Virus record (IMG/VR): IMGVR_UViG_3300027805_000081
Location: 1-25,531 of that record
DNA: 25,531 bases
Origin: a virus
Reading direction: 5' to 3' (one strand)
Both the position numbers and the translations under genes were made by a program. Position 1 is the first letter of the stretch, and each line of letters starts with the position of its first letter. The notes beneath the pieces were generated by a model. The model was not told the origin of the DNA. It was given only the letters and a program-made list of their open reading frames with translations, and did not search any database. Of the stretch, positions 2,615 to 24,981 are shown piece by piece.

Positions 2615-2664
2615 GAGCATAATGAAAATTATGCAGAATTATTAACGTGCTCAAGGAGGAAACT

Positions 2665-3207
2665 ATGGACCCACTATTTCAAATTTACACTAAGATGGGT
2701 GAGATTGAAACAAAGGTAGCTGATAGCATATTTGAAAATTATAAACTGAGCGTCGCTCAAACAAATGATATCAATAACCGCGCAATGCAAACTGCATTCC
2801 ACACGGACGCAACGCTTGCCGCTATAAAACAGACAGTTAATGATGCAAATACGCAGAATCTACTAGCGTTTGAGCGCTTAAATTCTGCAGTTCAGCTAGC
2901 AGCTGCTCACACTAATGAAGTGGTAATGAATGAAGGTGGCGCAACTCGTGCTCTCATCGGATCCATCGATCGTGAGAATCTAAATCGTCAACTAACTGAT
3001 CGTGCGACTGAAATCGTTGCTCTAAGAGAAGGATTCCGCGGCTGGGAAAGAGATTGGGGTCGTCTAAATGGCGCGGTCCAATCTGCTAACGTAGCTAGCC
3101 AAATCGCTGCTCTAGGAAGCCAACTTCAAAGCGCAAGGCAAGGCGTAATCAATACTGGTACATTTACTGGTAATACGCAAACACAGACGCCTACTAACAT
3201 TGGTTAA
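2665..3207 (+). CDS. Late structural-type protein, first copy of tandem pair
   Basis: 180 residues; family not recognised. The ATG at 2665 is chosen because AAGGAGG (2653-2659) lies 5 bases upstream; a longer reading from GTG 2647 would run through this site. The protein is mostly helical and rich in Asn, Gln and Ala. Segments FENYKLSVAQTNDINNRAMQ and GSIDRENLNRQLTDRATEI are also present in the next gene, with about four fifths identity overall by eye and no gaps. It ends with TGNTQTQTPTNIG, a terminal motif also found, diverged, in the protein at 4562. As the first gene after the late promoter, it is probably a virion component or an appendage assembly factor. Confidence 0.85.
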   Translation: MDPLFQIYTKMGEIETKVADSIFENYKLSVAQTNDINNRAMQTAFHTDATLAAIKQTVNDANTQNLLAFERLNSAVQLAAAHTNEVVMNEGGATRALIGSIDRENLNRQLTDRATEIVALREGFRGWERDWGRLNGAVQSANVASQIAALGSQLQSARQGVINTGTFTGNTQTQTPTNIG

Positions 3208-3218
3208 GGAGAAACATC

Positions 3219-3803
3219 ATGCCAGAAAATATGACAGGACCAGTTATGCAAACATTCCTAACTGACCCAATGTTTCAGGTCTACACCAAGATGGGTGAGA
3301 TCGAAACAAAGGTATCAGACAGCGTGTTTGAAAACTACAAGCTTCAAGTAGCCCAAACCAACGATATCAACAATCGTGCTATGCAGACAGCTTTCCACAC
3401 AACAGCGGCTCTAGATGCTCTTAAGCAAGCAGTAAATGATGCAAACACGCAGAACCTACTTGCAGCCGAGCGCCTTAAGTCAACAGTTGAACTTTCAGCT
3501 GCACACACAGCTGAAGTTGTTATGCAGGAAGGCGGCCAGACCAATGGTATCATTGGTTCTATTGATCGCGAAAATCTCAACCGTCAGCTAACTGATCGTG
3601 CAACTGAAATCTTTTCACTAAGGGATGGTTATCGTGGTTGGGAAAGAGATTGGAGTGGTCTAAATGGCGCATTCCAGTCAGCTAATGTAGCATCACAAGT
3701 TTCAGCACTAGGAAGTCAGCTTCAAGGAGCCTCACAGGGCTTTCTAAACACTGGAACAGCTACTGGTAATGAGCAAACACAAACGCCTACTAACATTGGC
3801 TAA
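3219..3803 (+). CDS. Late structural-type protein, second copy of tandem pair
   Basis: 194 residues; paralogue of the preceding gene with 14 extra N-terminal residues (MPENMTGPVMQTFL) before the common TDPMFQVYTKMGEIETKV segment. SD AAGGAG lies before ATG 3219. Synonymous positions differ widely between the copies, so the duplication is not recent. The C-terminus ends in the same tail, TGNEQTQTPTNIG. No catalytic motif is seen. The role is presumed structural from the late operon and its fibre neighbours. Confidence 0.85.
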   Translation: MPENMTGPVMQTFLTDPMFQVYTKMGEIETKVSDSVFENYKLQVAQTNDINNRAMQTAFHTTAALDALKQAVNDANTQNLLAAERLKSTVELSAAHTAEVVMQEGGQTNGIIGSIDRENLNRQLTDRATEIFSLRDGYRGWERDWSGLNGAFQSANVASQVSALGSQLQGASQGFLNTGTATGNEQTQTPTNIG

Positions 3804-4813: not shown

Positions 4814-5587
4814 ATGGAAAATGATAGCCTTAATAAAAAATTGCACGACATAAATTCTGCAATTTCATTTTTAAAATATGGGAGAAATAGAGCTGGGTTT
4901 AACCCGCTTGCTGCTAGAGCATTTCAGCTTGCAGCAGCTGCTCTTCAAGATGAAAATAATGATGTTTTATCTATAGACATAGGTTCACCGTGCACCACGG
5001 GGCCTACTGGACCAACTGGACCAACTGGCCCACAAGGTTTGGACGGTCCAACTGGCCCCGTGGGTTTAACCGGTGCAACGGGTGACCCAGGAGTAACAGG
5101 TCCGACTGGACCTTCAGATGGCCCCACTGGTCCCACTGGTCCAACTGGTGATGTGGGTGCAACTGGACCTACAGGTGCAGGTGGATTAGATGGAGTAACT
5201 GGCCCCGCCGGTGCAAATGGATTAGATGGACCCACGGGCCCTATTGGCCCTACTGGATTAGATGGGGTTACAGGTCCGACTGGCGCGGCTGGCTCCCTAA
5301 TTGTTCCGGTAACTAATGTAACAACTACTCCTTATACCATACTGAGCACGGATTACATGCTCGCAATAAATGTTGCAGGTGCAAGTTCTATCGTTCTTCC
5401 ATCTGCACCTTCAACAGGAACAGTTTATATTGTCAAGGATGTATCCGGAAATGCATCAACAAACAATGTCACAGTAACTGTTTCTGGTGGTGCAGTTACT
5501 ATAGATGGAACAAATTCAGCACTCATAAACACTGACTATGGCGCGTTAAACTTTATCTTTAATGGCACAGAATGGAACGTTTACTAA
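4814..5587 (+). CDS. Collagen-like fibre protein with C-terminal beta head
   Basis: 257 residues. Residues 1-60 form a helical N-terminal part with Cys60. Residues 63-161 are about 33 Gly-X-Y triplets, mostly GPT, GLD, GVT and GAT, with one break at Asp102 (GPS-D-GPT). This predicts a trimeric collagen-type triple helix. Residues about 165-257 form a beta-rich head ([32 protein letters not shown]) that recurs in the proteins at 6152 and 6665. Start ATG 4814 has AAAGGTA upstream. Phage collagen-like proteins are usually tail- or capsid-fibre parts; Thr-rich triplets like these are also used in spore surface fibres, but nothing else here suggests that. Confidence 0.85.
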
Positions 5588-10280: not shown

Positions 10281-10610
10281 TTACACCGTGTTCAGGGTGA
10301 ATTGACCAGTCTTGCGTAGTTCAGTCTCGCGGGCATGCGCTTCAGCCTTGCCGCGGACAAACTCGAAGATGTATGGAACGAAGGCACCGGGACCGTACTC
10401 GCGAATGGATTCGCAGAGAGCCCAGTTCTTTCCTTGGTTGAAGGCACGACCAACATGGCGGCTCCAGCGAGCAGCTAGCGTTTCCTTGCCCGAGCGATCT
10501 ACGCAGACGGCAATACCGACGTATTGCTCGTTCGTTATCACGTTTGACAGCACGTACACGATGTGACGACGATCAGAACGACGCTTCCGCTTTTTGATTT
10601 GGTTGTCCAT
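10281..10610 (-). CDS. GIY-YIG family nuclease, early
   Basis: 109 residues. After a basic N-terminus (KKRKRRSDRR), IVYVLSNVITNEQYVGIA matches the GIY-YIG strands; WSRH and a Glu in HARETEL fit the catalytic Arg and Glu positions. It is a single-domain nuclease without a visible DNA-binding extension. The -10 box of its promoter ends 6 bases before the ATG, so the transcript probably starts at or next to the start codon (leaderless). In T4, the early GIY-YIG enzyme endonuclease II degrades cytosine-containing host DNA. A similar role would fit the hydroxymethylcytosine genes here but is inferred. Confidence 0.8.
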   Translation of the reverse strand: MDNQIKKRKRRSDRRHIVYVLSNVITNEQYVGIAVCVDRSGKETLAARWSRHVGRAFNQGKNWALCESIREYGPGAFVPYIFEFVRGKAEAHARETELRKTGQFTLNTV

Positions 10611-21289: not shown

Positions 21290-21443
21290 GTTTATCTCCT
21301 TTTGTCAAAGTTGCCGTTTTAGTATTTTCATCTAAAGAAAATACCAAAGTATCTCCTATGTTTAGATTTAGTTGATCCATTATTTCTTGCGGTATAGGCA
21401 ACAACAGATCATCACCGTCTTCTTCCAATTTAACTATCCACAT
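21282..21443 (-). CDS. AbrB/SpoVT-like small DNA-binding protein
   Basis: 53 residues, ATG 21443 to TAA 21282, with TGAGGTG overlapping the helicase stop codon. LLLPIPQEIMDQLNLNIGDT fits the AbrB/MazE swapped-hairpin motif (hxLPxxhhxxLxLxxGDxh), preceded by the first strand WIVKLEEDGDD. No toxin gene follows, so a regulator is more likely than an antitoxin. Its ribosome site and coupling to both neighbours support a real gene. Such phage AbrB-like proteins are usually transcription regulators; the target here is unknown. Confidence 0.7.
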   Translation of the reverse strand: MWIVKLEEDGDDLLLPIPQEIMDQLNLNIGDTLVFSLDENTKTATLTKGDKHE

Positions 21444-21452
21444 TTTAACACC

Positions 21453-23189
21453 TCATAAGAATTTTGTAAACCTTAGGTTAAATTCATTCTTCCAGATATT
21501 CTGTGAAGAATTAAAGAGACGCTGCGCATTTGCATCTAGGCAATAAGTAACAGCGTGGTCATCCGCAGATCTCACAGATCTGCCAGCTCCCTGCACCATC
21601 TTCATGATCGTAATGATGTTATAAAGATCAGGATGTCTATCAAGTATGAACTTCATTCGCTTATCAGCTAATGATGGGAAAGGTGCCTTCACTAAAATTT
21701 GAAACCTGGAAAGGTCACCCGGTAGGTCAATTCCTTCAAACATAGCCGGAGAAATAAGAACAGCTGGTCCATCTTTAAAGTGCTTGAATGATGCAAGTAC
21801 ATTCTCTAGTTTTTCTCCCTGGCGATGCTCGAATAGTGTAAACTTTCCTGCCTTATAAAGTGGCAAAATTTCTGCAACTATTTCTTGCTGAAGTTTAAAG
21901 CTAGGCGCAAGAATAATTCCTCGCTCACCTTCGTCAACGTGTTTTTTAACAATCTTGTATACATTCTTTCTAAGCTGCTTTACTGTATCGGGATTCTGTA
22001 GAGAAGTATAGCTAAGTGATAACGGGTCAAAGAAAACTACTTCTTTATTTTCCTTAGGAAAAGTAGGGTCAAGCCGTATGAACTTTGTTTTTTCTGTATC
22101 TAGCTTAAGAGTTTTAGAAAGAAAATCTGCGCTCACTGTCGCTGACATAAAGAGGTTATGCGTGGAGCATTGCAGCGCTTCCATCATCGTGCCAACAAAT
22201 ACTGGTTTAACCGATACTGCTGCTTCATCTTCTTTGTATTCGAAGACGTGCTCATATCCATACTTAAATAGATCATCTATCTTGCACACTAGACCTTCAT
22301 ATTTCTTAGTGAATCGTGATAGCTTGGTGTATTTACCCATATCACCAGATCTAAGAGCTCTTTCTCCTGCTATAGTGCCCTGCTCCTTAGCATAAGAATA
22401 AACTTTATGAAGCGCTCTAAGGTAAGCATCATAATTTTTCTCATTAATCTTATCTTTTTTGGCACAGTCAGATGCTATGCTGGTTAATGTCTTTGCTATT
22501 TCTATATCAGTTAGCCTAACGGTTTCTGCTATTTCCTCAGCCATTGCTTGGATTCTCTTCTGTGAAAAATAGATAGCATTATGCTCACTGAAAAGATCAT
22601 TAACCAGGTGTGCCTCGTCCCATATTAAAAGGTCTCTATCTTCAAACTTACCCGTGTACATTCTATCGATAAAGAAATACGAATAGTTTGTCGTTAGATG
22701 TCTCACCGTATTCTTTTTCTTTTTTACTGCAAGGTACTCGCACTTGTTGCAGTGGTTAGCAATTACATCCTCAAACTCTGATCCTGATTGCACCATTGTA
22801 TACCATGCACAGGCCTCAGCATTTTCTTCGTTTTCAGGAGTTGTTAGAGCAGAACAGCCATAGTTGCTCGCTCCCTTAATCATGATGTACTTGCTACCAT
22901 TAGAAAGTTTTTCAAAGGTAGAACTGTATTGTTTTAATAAAGTATTCGTTGAAACTAAACTAATGCTAGATTTTATTCCGTGATTATTAGAATTTATCAT
23001 ACTAAGTGCCTCGGCGCAAACGGCACCAATAATGCTTTTTCCTGTGCCAGTAGAAGCAGAGAGAATAACATTTTGCATTTTCTCGTCAACAAATGCGCAA
23101 ATTATCTTTTCTACTACATCAACCTGACCATTCCTAGGGATAAATCCTAGGTTAGAAAAAGCTTCATTTATAATTGTTTTTTTGTCCAT
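21453..23189 (-). CDS. XPD/DinG-type Fe-S DNA helicase
   Basis: 578 residues, superfamily 2. The Q-motif-like region IPRNGQ is at 17-22, Walker A STGTGKS at 46-52, four Cys at 112, 127, 147 and 150 in the position of the XPD/DinG 4Fe-4S cluster, DEAH at 191-194, MSATVS near the middle and QGAGRSVRS near 533-541 (motif VI). The family unwinds DNA 5' to 3' in repair and replication. Start ATG 23189 has no visible ribosome site, unlike nearly every other gene here. A second N-terminal start of the same type lies beyond the HNH gene (23989-24087), so the 5' end of this gene was probably rearranged by homing. Confidence 0.88.
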   Translation of the reverse strand: MDKKTIINEAFSNLGFIPRNGQVDVVEKIICAFVDEKMQNVILSASTGTGKSIIGAVCAEALSMINSNNHGIKSSISLVSTNTLLKQYSSTFEKLSNGSKYIMIKGASNYGCSALTTPENEENAEACAWYTMVQSGSEFEDVIANHCNKCEYLAVKKKKNTVRHLTTNYSYFFIDRMYTGKFEDRDLLIWDEAHLVNDLFSEHNAIYFSQKRIQAMAEEIAETVRLTDIEIAKTLTSIASDCAKKDKINEKNYDAYLRALHKVYSYAKEQGTIAGERALRSGDMGKYTKLSRFTKKYEGLVCKIDDLFKYGYEHVFEYKEDEAAVSVKPVFVGTMMEALQCSTHNLFMSATVSADFLSKTLKLDTEKTKFIRLDPTFPKENKEVVFFDPLSLSYTSLQNPDTVKQLRKNVYKIVKKHVDEGERGIILAPSFKLQQEIVAEILPLYKAGKFTLFEHRQGEKLENVLASFKHFKDGPAVLISPAMFEGIDLPGDLSRFQILVKAPFPSLADKRMKFILDRHPDLYNIITIMKMVQGAGRSVRSADDHAVTYCLDANAQRLFNSSQNIWKNEFNLRFTKFL

Positions 23190-23225
23190 ATTGATAAATA
23201 ACTACATTAGTAATTTGGAGTAAAA

Positions 23226-24011
23226 ATGTTTAACGATTCTAAATATACTCGCTGGTATTTTTCAATCATATGTAATCCAGATACTGTGTCTTATACTGAG
23301 AAACATCATATTATTCCCAAATCTATTGGTGGATCGGATGAAGAATCAAACATAATCGCAGTTTCTCTTCGTCAGCACTATGTTCTTCATTTACTTTTAC
23401 CCAAAATGGTAAAGAATAAAACTCACAAAAACAAAATGTTATTTGCTCTTAGATGTATGCTTAATTTTAACAAACTTTCTAGAAGATATAAACCATCATC
23501 TCGAATTATTGAACATCTTAAAAAAGCCATTCGAGAAACTCCAATTTCTAGTCATCATTCAGACAATATTAGAAAGGGTCAACTTGGAAAAACTTTAAGT
23601 CAAGAACATAAAACGGCAATTTCAAAGGGATTGCTGGGTAAAAAGCATACTGTTGAAACTTTAGAAAAAATGTCACGTGCTCAAAAAAGACGGATATTAT
23701 CCCCAGATCATAAAAATAAAATTAGTCAAACCAGAAAAGGCAAAGGTCTGAGTTCTGAACACAAAAATAAGATTTCAACTAGTCTTTTAGGAAAAAAACG
23801 ATCTGAAGTATCAAAAATCAATTCTAGTAATGGGCAGCAAAAATATGTTTACACATTAATTTCTCCAAATGGAGAAATCTGCACCACATCTAATCTTAAA
23901 GAATGGTGCAGTATCATGAATATGCCATATTCATCATTTTCTGAAATATCTAGAATTGGTGGATCTACAAAAAATGAATGGAAGGTTTTTAGAAAAAGAA
24001 AAGCTGTTTAA
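23226..24011 (+). CDS. HNH homing endonuclease with NUMOD3-like repeats
   Basis: 261 residues, the only plus-strand gene in a minus-strand region. HHIIPKSIGG at 27-36 with N42, H51 and H55 is the HNH motif. Residues about 110-185 contain repeated NUMOD3-type DNA-binding units (GKTLSQEHKTAISKGLLGKK, then HTVETLEKMSRAQKR, LSPDHKNKISQTRKGKG). The C-terminus (YTLISPNGEICTTSNLKEW) resembles a NUMOD1-type helix-turn-helix. SD TTGGAG lies before ATG 23226. It is AT-rich, inserted between a helicase 5' remnant and the helicase gene, and is probably a free-standing mobile gene whose target lies in the helicase gene. Confidence 0.88.
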   Translation: MFNDSKYTRWYFSIICNPDTVSYTEKHHIIPKSIGGSDEESNIIAVSLRQHYVLHLLLPKMVKNKTHKNKMLFALRCMLNFNKLSRRYKPSSRIIEHLKKAIRETPISSHHSDNIRKGQLGKTLSQEHKTAISKGLLGKKHTVETLEKMSRAQKRRILSPDHKNKISQTRKGKGLSSEHKNKISTSLLGKKRSEVSKINSSNGQQKYVYTLISPNGEICTTSNLKEWCSIMNMPYSSFSEISRIGGSTKNEWKVFRKRKAV

Positions 24012-24087
24012 CCGCTTCTCTCTGACCAGGGCGGGGGCTGAACTTTAGCCGCTCAAAAGCAGCATCAACTTGAGTTTCGTATTTCAT
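23989..24087 (-). pseudogene. Stranded 5' fragment of a helicase gene
   Basis: The ATG at 24087, 6 bases after the upstream stop, opens a 32-codon frame: MKYETQVDAAFERLKFSPRP then GQREAVKQL, then FFF and TAA. AAFERLKFSPRPGQREAVKQ aligns with residues 9-28 of the downstream helicase (EAFSNLGFIPRNGQVDVVEK), including the conserved PR-GQ of the Q-motif region. The similarity ends at the 3' end of the HNH gene. It is therefore the broken start of an older or different helicase allele, separated from its body by the homing gene. It may still be translated as a short peptide. Confidence 0.72.
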
Positions 24088-24093
24088 TTCGTT

Positions 24094-24705
24094 TTAGTTG
24101 TGAGGTGTTAGTTCTGAAAAATCTACATTATCATTCAACCAAGATCTGCCTGCTGGACCATCAACATATGCCTCAAAGAAACAACAGTCTTCGTAAATCA
24201 AGCCAAGCTTCGGTTTAGTCATGAGCCTTTGGTGATCATAGCTTTCTATTTCGCCGGTTTTTCGATCTATCATTCTAGGATAATCACCCTTCATCTTTTT
24301 ATAGTATTCTGCGAAAGATGCAACAGAGGATTCTCCTGCGGTGCTAAATGCTCCACCAACAAACAGGTCATCATCTAGCAAAAGAGTAAGTTCCCAAGAC
24401 AACTCGGCCGCGTATCCTTTTTTGGTTTTGCTGGGATCAGTAGCACTGAACAGAATGCTGATGTACTTTTTTCCAGCAATGATAAATGGCTCAGTATTTT
24501 TATATGAAACCAGCTCTCCATCTACCCACAAAGAATATTTAGTTCCACTGTGGCCATCAAGCTTCTTGATAAACTTGTTCTTGTTGATCTGCTTAACAAC
24601 TTTTGCGATTGACTGAGAGGCCACTTCATGTGCCCATTGCTCAGGAGTAAAATCGTATCCCAACGGATTGCGTATTGCCATTTCTTTGAGAGAAGATAAT
24701 TTCAT
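24094..24705 (-). CDS. Hypothetical protein with possible capsid-targeting N-terminus
   Basis: 203 residues, AAGGAG 4 bases before ATG 24705. The N-terminus MKLSSLKE then MA has an L-x-E pattern at residues 6-8, as in the proteins at 10986 and 12053, but with Met after the cut site the match is weaker. The rest is mixed alpha/beta (SLWVDGELVSYKNTEPFIIA, YISILFSATDPSKTKKGYAA, then LSWELTLLLDDDLFVGGAFS). No family is recognised. It is separated from the dCMP hydroxymethylase by the small gene at 24757. Confidence 0.72.
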   Translation of the reverse strand: MKLSSLKEMAIRNPLGYDFTPEQWAHEVASQSIAKVVKQINKNKFIKKLDGHSGTKYSLWVDGELVSYKNTEPFIIAGKKYISILFSATDPSKTKKGYAAELSWELTLLLDDDLFVGGAFSTAGESSVASFAEYYKKMKGDYPRMIDRKTGEIESYDHQRLMTKPKLGLIYEDCCFFEAYVDGPAGRSWLNDNVDFSELTPHN

Positions 24706-24756
24706 GGCGCTCCTTTTTAGAAATTCATCGCGTTAGCTGGATTGTGGTGCTCAGAA

Positions 24757-24981
24757 CTATTTTGGTTCATCTAAGAGGTGAATTACGCCTGGAGATCTGT
24801 CGGTATAATAATCATCATCTTCTACGGCTGTCACGTAGACTTCATCGAGCGTCTGTGCAAATTTTGGGTGTGTAGTATCTGTCTTAATAAGAGTGCAGCA
24901 CGTTTCATCCCCTTGCTTTTTGCGATCTAGCTTGCTAAGTAGGGTTAGAAGATTTCTTCTTGAAAGGTAGATTTTGTTCAT
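24757..24981 (-). CDS. Conserved small phage protein
   Basis: 74 residues (MNKIYLSRRNLLTLLSKLDR, then GDETCCTLIKTDTTHPKFAQ, then VYVTAVEDDDYYTDR). I recognise the pattern as a widespread uncharacterised phage family often found near replication and nucleotide genes. The ATG overlaps the TGA of the hydroxymethylase gene (ATGA), so it is translationally coupled. Function unknown. Confidence 0.82.
   Translation of the reverse strand: MNKIYLSRRNLLTLLSKLDRKKQGDETCCTLIKTDTTHPKFAQTLDEVYVTAVEDDDYYTDRSPGVIHLLDEPK

Follow-up and report, generated by a model that had tools for sequence, protein, structure and literature searches.

A homing endonuclease gene between two helicase starts in a virus genome: probable delivery of a substitute gene 5' end

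Why should a phage helicase gene have two starts, one on each side of an HNH homing endonuclease gene? The question is raised by a virus record from IMG/VR, of which we analysed a 25,531-nucleotide stretch (hereafter the window, meaning that whole stretch). Read along the minus strand, the locus comprises a gene for a 203-aa protein, 6 nt of spacer, a 32-codon frame, the HNH gene on the opposite strand, a 36-bp gap and the intact helicase gene (minus strand, 21453-23189), whose first residues are MDKKTIINEAFSNLGFIPRNGQVDVVEK, also written MDKKTIINEAFSNLGFIPRNGQVDVVEKI. Its parts are as follows, HEG standing for homing endonuclease gene.

24094-24705, minus strand: gene upstream in the operon, 203 aa, with syntenic counterparts before the helicase gene in the HEG-free relatives L001 and L005
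23989-24087, minus strand: stranded helicase start, a 32-codon frame (MKYETQVDAAFERLKFSPRPGQREAVKQLFFF, then the stop codon), with the helicase-homologous codons 1-29 at 24001-24087
24001-24011, no strand: junction at which, from the sequence, the HNH 3' end and its stop codon overlap putatively resident helicase codons 26-29
23226-24011, plus strand: free-standing HNH homing endonuclease gene (P0002), NUMOD3-containing and MobE-like, from Pfam, PHROG and GenBank matches
23217-23220, plus strand: GGAG, likely ribosome-binding site of the HNH gene, from the sequence
23190-23225, no strand: 36-bp divergent gap from the HNH start to the helicase start, with CAATATGGA at its helicase-side edge, as in the L023 gap
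23103-23189, minus strand: putative substitute helicase 5' end, codons 1-29, with an anomalous divergence and an A+T-richness similar to that of the HNH gene
21453-23102, minus strand: helicase body, read as resident, with ResIII/DEAD and Helicase_C_2 domains and a match to phrog_2488 (DNA helicase)

The ATG of the 32-codon frame lies 6 nt beyond the stop codon of the 203-aa gene, its last codons extend into the HNH 3' end, and the HNH stop codon sits within what reads as resident helicase DNA. The product of the HNH gene, P0002, has HNH and NUMOD3 domains above the Pfam cut-offs and matches phrog_655 (homing endonuclease). Its GenBank matches include MobE of T4 and of phiN3, and the catalytic residues H27/H28, N42 and H51, which are invariant in the comparison, are kept. 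Elsewhere in the window, a small GIY-YIG-like frame (10281-10610, minus strand; HIVYVLSNVITNEQYVGIAV) is possibly a further mobile endonuclease.

A gap-free alignment of the stranded and intact starts spans 29 residues and has a BLOSUM62 score of 52, a value reached by none of 5000 shuffled sequences (best scores of 43 against the first 60 residues and of 46 against the whole protein). An earlier note on this DNA had reported a second, diverged helicase start on the minus strand beyond the HNH gene, and this start is thus real. The note had also placed the end of the similarity at the HNH 3' end, rightly so, as it stops at codon 28-29, within the last ~11 nt of the HNH open reading frame. The HNH gene is therefore flanked by two copies of the helicase N-terminus, one in frame with the body and the other stranded. 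At the DNA level, the two starts share an identity of 0.53 over 87 nt, and the LGFxPRxGQ motif is retained in the start of the intact gene. The G+C content of the latter is 0.31, the same as that of the HNH gene, compared with 0.39 for the helicase body and 0.48 for the stranded start. Taken alone, composition is a weak test, as the start of the window gene has a z score of -1.6 against its own body and ~6% of the body windows are equally A+T-rich; the composition drifts back towards body values past the first ~40 codons. It is true that the intact gene lacks a ribosome site, as the earlier note remarked, but this is not diagnostic. No obvious Shine-Dalgarno sequence was found at the stranded start, at several other genes of the window or in several HNH-free relatives, and we rejected the missing site as evidence because such sites are commonly absent from this phage and from its relatives.

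Scans of IMG/VR, with near-identical and truncated copies set aside, yielded 27 other distinct helicases, which form two groups (66-75% and 45-49% identical). No HEG is present at the helicase site in 25 of these 27 relatives, and each of the 25 has one start only, of the M[KRSN]Y type. MKY-like starts are found in all 14 HEG-free members of the closer group, with TTG and GTG as start codons in L007 and L159, respectively. As to whether HNH-free relatives start like MKYETQVDAAF, a check suggested in the earlier note, their helicases start with MKYEKQVANAFERLGF, MKYKQQIDAAFERLGF, MKYETQINDAFKRLGF and similar sequences, with one start each. None of the 25 carries both the short frame and a helicase start, and no second helicase start was found in the 1.5 kb upstream of their helicase genes; apparent second starts in L171 and L173 proved to be wrong-frame, G+C-rich noise.

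The stranded fragment has a mean identity of 0.65 with the HEG-free starts, equal to their identity with each other. The intact gene of the window compares with its HEG-free orthologues at 0.46 over the first 29 codons and at 0.71 over the body, which is up to 77% identical to them. Outside these 29 codons, the other ~550 codons are ordinary in this comparison, most of the body being as close to the HEG-free orthologues as those are to each other, or closer. When the first 29 codons were scored against 29-column windows of the body of the same helicase, z scores of -4.4 and -3.6 were obtained for the window and L023, respectively, and of -1.4 to +0.9 for the 14 HEG-free members of the closer group. 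These two HEG-bearing phages are the only members of that group below -3.5. The HEG-free L165 (position 4001) also has an unusually diverged helicase start (z of -3.1), which is possibly the old scar of a lost HEG, or simple drift. Because the fragment fits the family (0.65), the intact start does not (0.46, z of -4.4) and the body is ordinary, the sequences identify the stranded start as the resident one and the start of the intact gene as the putative intruder, of about 29 codons and not a whole allele. The earlier note had proposed that the HNH gene and a diverged helicase allele were copied in together, leaving the first codons of the resident allele stranded. The stranding of the resident start agrees with the identity values (0.65 vs 0.46), but not the arrival of a whole allele, given that the anomaly is limited to the first ~29 codons. 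As the rest is resident-like, the insert would consist of the HNH gene and a substitute 5' end.

The site is polymorphic for the HNH gene, which is present in the window, L023 and L166 and absent in the 25 other relatives. In L023, whose helicase body is 69% identical, the HNH protein is 50% identical to P0002 over residues 2-256, and its gene lies divergently about 60 bp upstream of the helicase start. In L166, from the more distant group, the corresponding figures are 40% over residues 1-256 and about 41 bp. The HEG of both phages is purely intergenic, in the same place and orientation as in the window and with no stranded fragment, which is the arrangement expected of a donor. The gaps of L023 and the window share the 9-mer CAATATGGA, located at the window's own start codon; this sharing is suggestive only. 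The L166 start has no protein-level anomaly (z of -0.3), and divergence of the 5' end does not always accompany the HEG. When the G+C content of the first 29 codons was compared with that of the body in the 28 helicases, L166 (z of -3.3) and L023 (z of -2.7) were the two most A+T-rich outliers, and the window ranked about sixth (z of -1.6). No donor with the 29 codons of the window was found; the start of L023, the nearest HEG carrier, is only 0.345 identical. In a cultured phage, Sinorhizobium phage phiN3 (L174, 483-2666), a mobE HEG lies divergently 48 bp upstream of a different gene, a uvsW-like helicase gene whose first 29 codons are A+T-rich (G+C content of 0.32 vs 0.51), with the same layout.

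In L001 and L005, the helicase gene is flanked upstream by genes for thymidylate synthase (TS), a 74-aa protein and a 203-aa protein, and downstream by tmk and o374; most of these flanking genes are also found in other relatives. The HNH insertion is the main break in gene order between the window and its relatives. A DNA search of the locus among GenBank phages gave no match, and a search of genome contigs returned no relatives. Neither did a pattern scan with the upstream gene as the query, although the synteny comparison did show them. A scan for promoters and terminators performed no better on the locus than on shuffled sequences.

Several other histories could be envisaged for the two starts. 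If the HNH gene had arrived from another phage with an entire diverged helicase gene, leaving only the first codons of the resident, the stranded start would be accounted for equally well, and a body drawn from the same clade would be compatible with the identity values. However, the anomaly does not go beyond codon 29, the body is for the most part at or above the mutual similarity of the HEG-free helicases, and composition returns towards body values beyond the first ~40 codons, which makes such a replacement unlikely. Since the 25.5-kb window is a virus record lacking an isolate, two related phages might have been joined at the HNH 3' end during metagenomic assembly. We hold this to be very unlikely: that the HNH insertion is the main synteny break argues against a chimeric contig, L001 and L005, each a single relative, having the same gene order on both sides (TS, 74-aa, 203-aa, helicase, tmk, o374), L023 and L166 carry an orthologous HEG at this site, and the same kind of junction occurs in other genes on independent contigs (see below).

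Two diverged starts in tandem on the same strand might also be the remains of two former helicase paralogues, one of which was hit by the HNH gene and survives only as its start. Two copies, or a second upstream start, are found in none of the relatives, the end of the fragment coincides exactly with the HNH 3' end, and the aberrant copy is the intact one rather than the fragment; a duplication is also not needed to explain the same-site HEGs of L023 and L166, and we regard it as most improbable. The order exon-HEG-exon and the frequent location of phage HEGs within group I introns could suggest that the fragment is a first exon spliced to the helicase body, the HNH gene being the intron reading frame. 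To this we give almost no credence, as the HNH gene lies on the other strand, the complete start already present in the downstream gene would make splicing superfluous, and no Rfam match was found in 21400-24800 at E values up to 1. We rejected the assignment to group I introns with HEGs for the latter two reasons.

We consider it very probable that the locus is the homing product of a free-standing MobE-like HNH endonuclease, and that the mobile unit includes the first ~29 codons of the helicase gene. The donor would have been a phage with the layout of L023 and L166, i.e. with an intergenic, divergent HEG 40-60 bp upstream of its helicase gene; its start would be MDKKTIINEAFSNLGF, and the resident-type start MKYETQVDAAFERLKF. 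In a co-infected cell, P0002 would have cut the HEG-less resident helicase gene at about codon 29, near the conserved GFxPRxGQ. The helicase-side end may then have been repaired by homology with the donor helicase gene, such as one of the L023 type, so that the donor start and the HNH gene were copied in. The other end, having no homology to the donor, would have been joined directly to the HNH 3' end by an illegitimate event. The outcome would be the observed arrangement, with the first 29 resident codons stranded behind the HNH gene and a hybrid helicase made of a foreign start and the resident body. Resident sequence is missing between codon 29, where the fragment ends, and about codon 32, where the body becomes resident-like again, and a double-strand break by P0002 between these codons would be the simplest account. 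Helicase function is probably preserved in the hybrid because the substitute start keeps LGFxPRxGQ, and this start is probably no longer cut, conferring self-immunity, because its DNA differs from that of the resident start.

It is established that free-standing HEGs swap C-terminal gene ends in fungal mitochondria (Allomyces atp6; Glomus atp6/atp9/cox2/nad3; PMC3630166). As in these mobile ORFs with terminal duplication, the HEG carries a foreign, diverged gene end, giving an intact hybrid gene with the native end stranded past the HEG (PMC3630166). Here too, the stranded copy groups with the host lineage (0.65) and the fused copy is foreign (0.46, z of -4.4). The fungal mobile ORFs replace the 3' end and involve LAGLIDADG or GIY-YIG HEGs in an organelle (PMC3630166), whereas in the window the 5' end including the start codon is replaced, in a DNA phage, and the HEG is of the HNH type and on the opposite strand. 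The locus is therefore a variant, not a member, of the fungal terminal-duplication element, because the replaced end is N-terminal here.

For phages, HEG invasion has been reviewed as resulting either in intergenic insertion accompanied by co-conversion or in the splitting of a gene (PMC2988022; PMC5009743). The Seg and Mob endonucleases of T4-like phages spread by cleavage of HEG-less alleles and co-conversion of flanking DNA (PMC2988022). The locus resembles this intronless homing in that a free-standing HEG adjoins its target gene (PMC2988022), with P0002 being MobE-like. Nevertheless, the repair described for Seg and Mob runs into donor homology flanking the HEG (PMC2988022), whereas one junction of the window lies inside the target gene, has no sign of homology and leaves a stranded gene start. 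Like mobA in T4 gene 39/60 and mobE in Aeh1 nrdA, the HNH gene is inserted within a gene whose function survives (PMC2988022; PMC5009743), or probably does so in the case of the window. In T4, a 50-nt insert nearby may protect against cleavage (PMC2988022; PMC5009743). In contrast with gene 39/60 and nrdA, which are split into two cooperating polypeptides, the helicase is in one piece, and the insert appears to supply a substitute end. We found no phage report of an HEG carrying a substitute 5' or 3' gene end in the open-licence literature, which is weak evidence of absence. On the preferred reading, an intronless HEG can thus enter the coding sequence of a phage gene that is probably important and yet, by means of a substitute end, avoid its destruction. 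The stranded resident codons would be a fossil of the event; as they locate the break with a precision of a few codons, they predict which sequence this uncharacterised endonuclease targets.

We also screened phage HEG loci of the P0002 family for flank duplications by comparing their translated flanks with each other (83 + 31 + 13 loci, the last from GenBank phages, about 127 in all). Mismatched flanks served as controls and gave a maximum score of 46 in the 83-locus set, and a 99% quantile of 44 with one outlier of 62 in the 31-locus set. Besides the window, three clear cases emerged, a count that is not a rate, as the loci are partly redundant. One is N-terminal and affects a T4 gp21-like prohead protease gene (L153, 4881-5795 and 5779-6453). 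Its two starts differ by 13 synonymous and 1 non-synonymous codon changes in 25, i.e. the new start has been recoded almost wholly synonymously, and the G+C contents are 0.27 for the new start, 0.30 for the HEG, 0.41 for the stranded start and 0.42 for the body. The others are C-terminal swaps by plus-strand HEGs, with the native C-terminus stranded past the HEG, in an HD hydrolase gene (L069, 2789-4370) and a SleB-like hydrolase gene (L076, 2860-4104). A further locus, noticed by eye (L013, 2257-2760), has a stranded MKFSEFI, a truncated HEG and a new start, MYKFNEYKEGSQDVILTEEKDGKNLHLE, whose reading frame does not match that of the resident body; it is a decayed N-terminal case, a frameshift or an assembly error. 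Matches at L080 and L084 were rejected because their alignments cross stop codons, and one at L118 because of intein C-terminal motifs. The latter locus (1-1361) has a MobE-like HEG near these motifs (HRFYTNGILSHNS) in a terminase-like frame. Stranded gene ends are absent from all 13 HEG loci taken from cultured phages (phiN3, phi-pp2 and Aeromonas 65 among them), and this swap anatomy is therefore not the rule.

It is conceivable, though we would not yet call it probable, that phage free-standing HEGs form a distinct class of mobile cassettes that carry a recoded end of the interrupted gene, thereby mending the gene and at the same time erasing the cut site. There would then be 5' versions (the window, L153 and L013) and 3' versions (L069 and L076). 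The recurrence of this anatomy in other phage genes suggests that foreign sequence can form the start or end of a gene beside an HEG, with consequences for gene phylogenies and for the annotation of start codons. Elsewhere in the window, the plus strand carries two clearly related tandem genes for proteins of 186 and 194 aa (2647-3803), followed by a gene for a GPTGPT collagen-like repeat protein (4814-5587).
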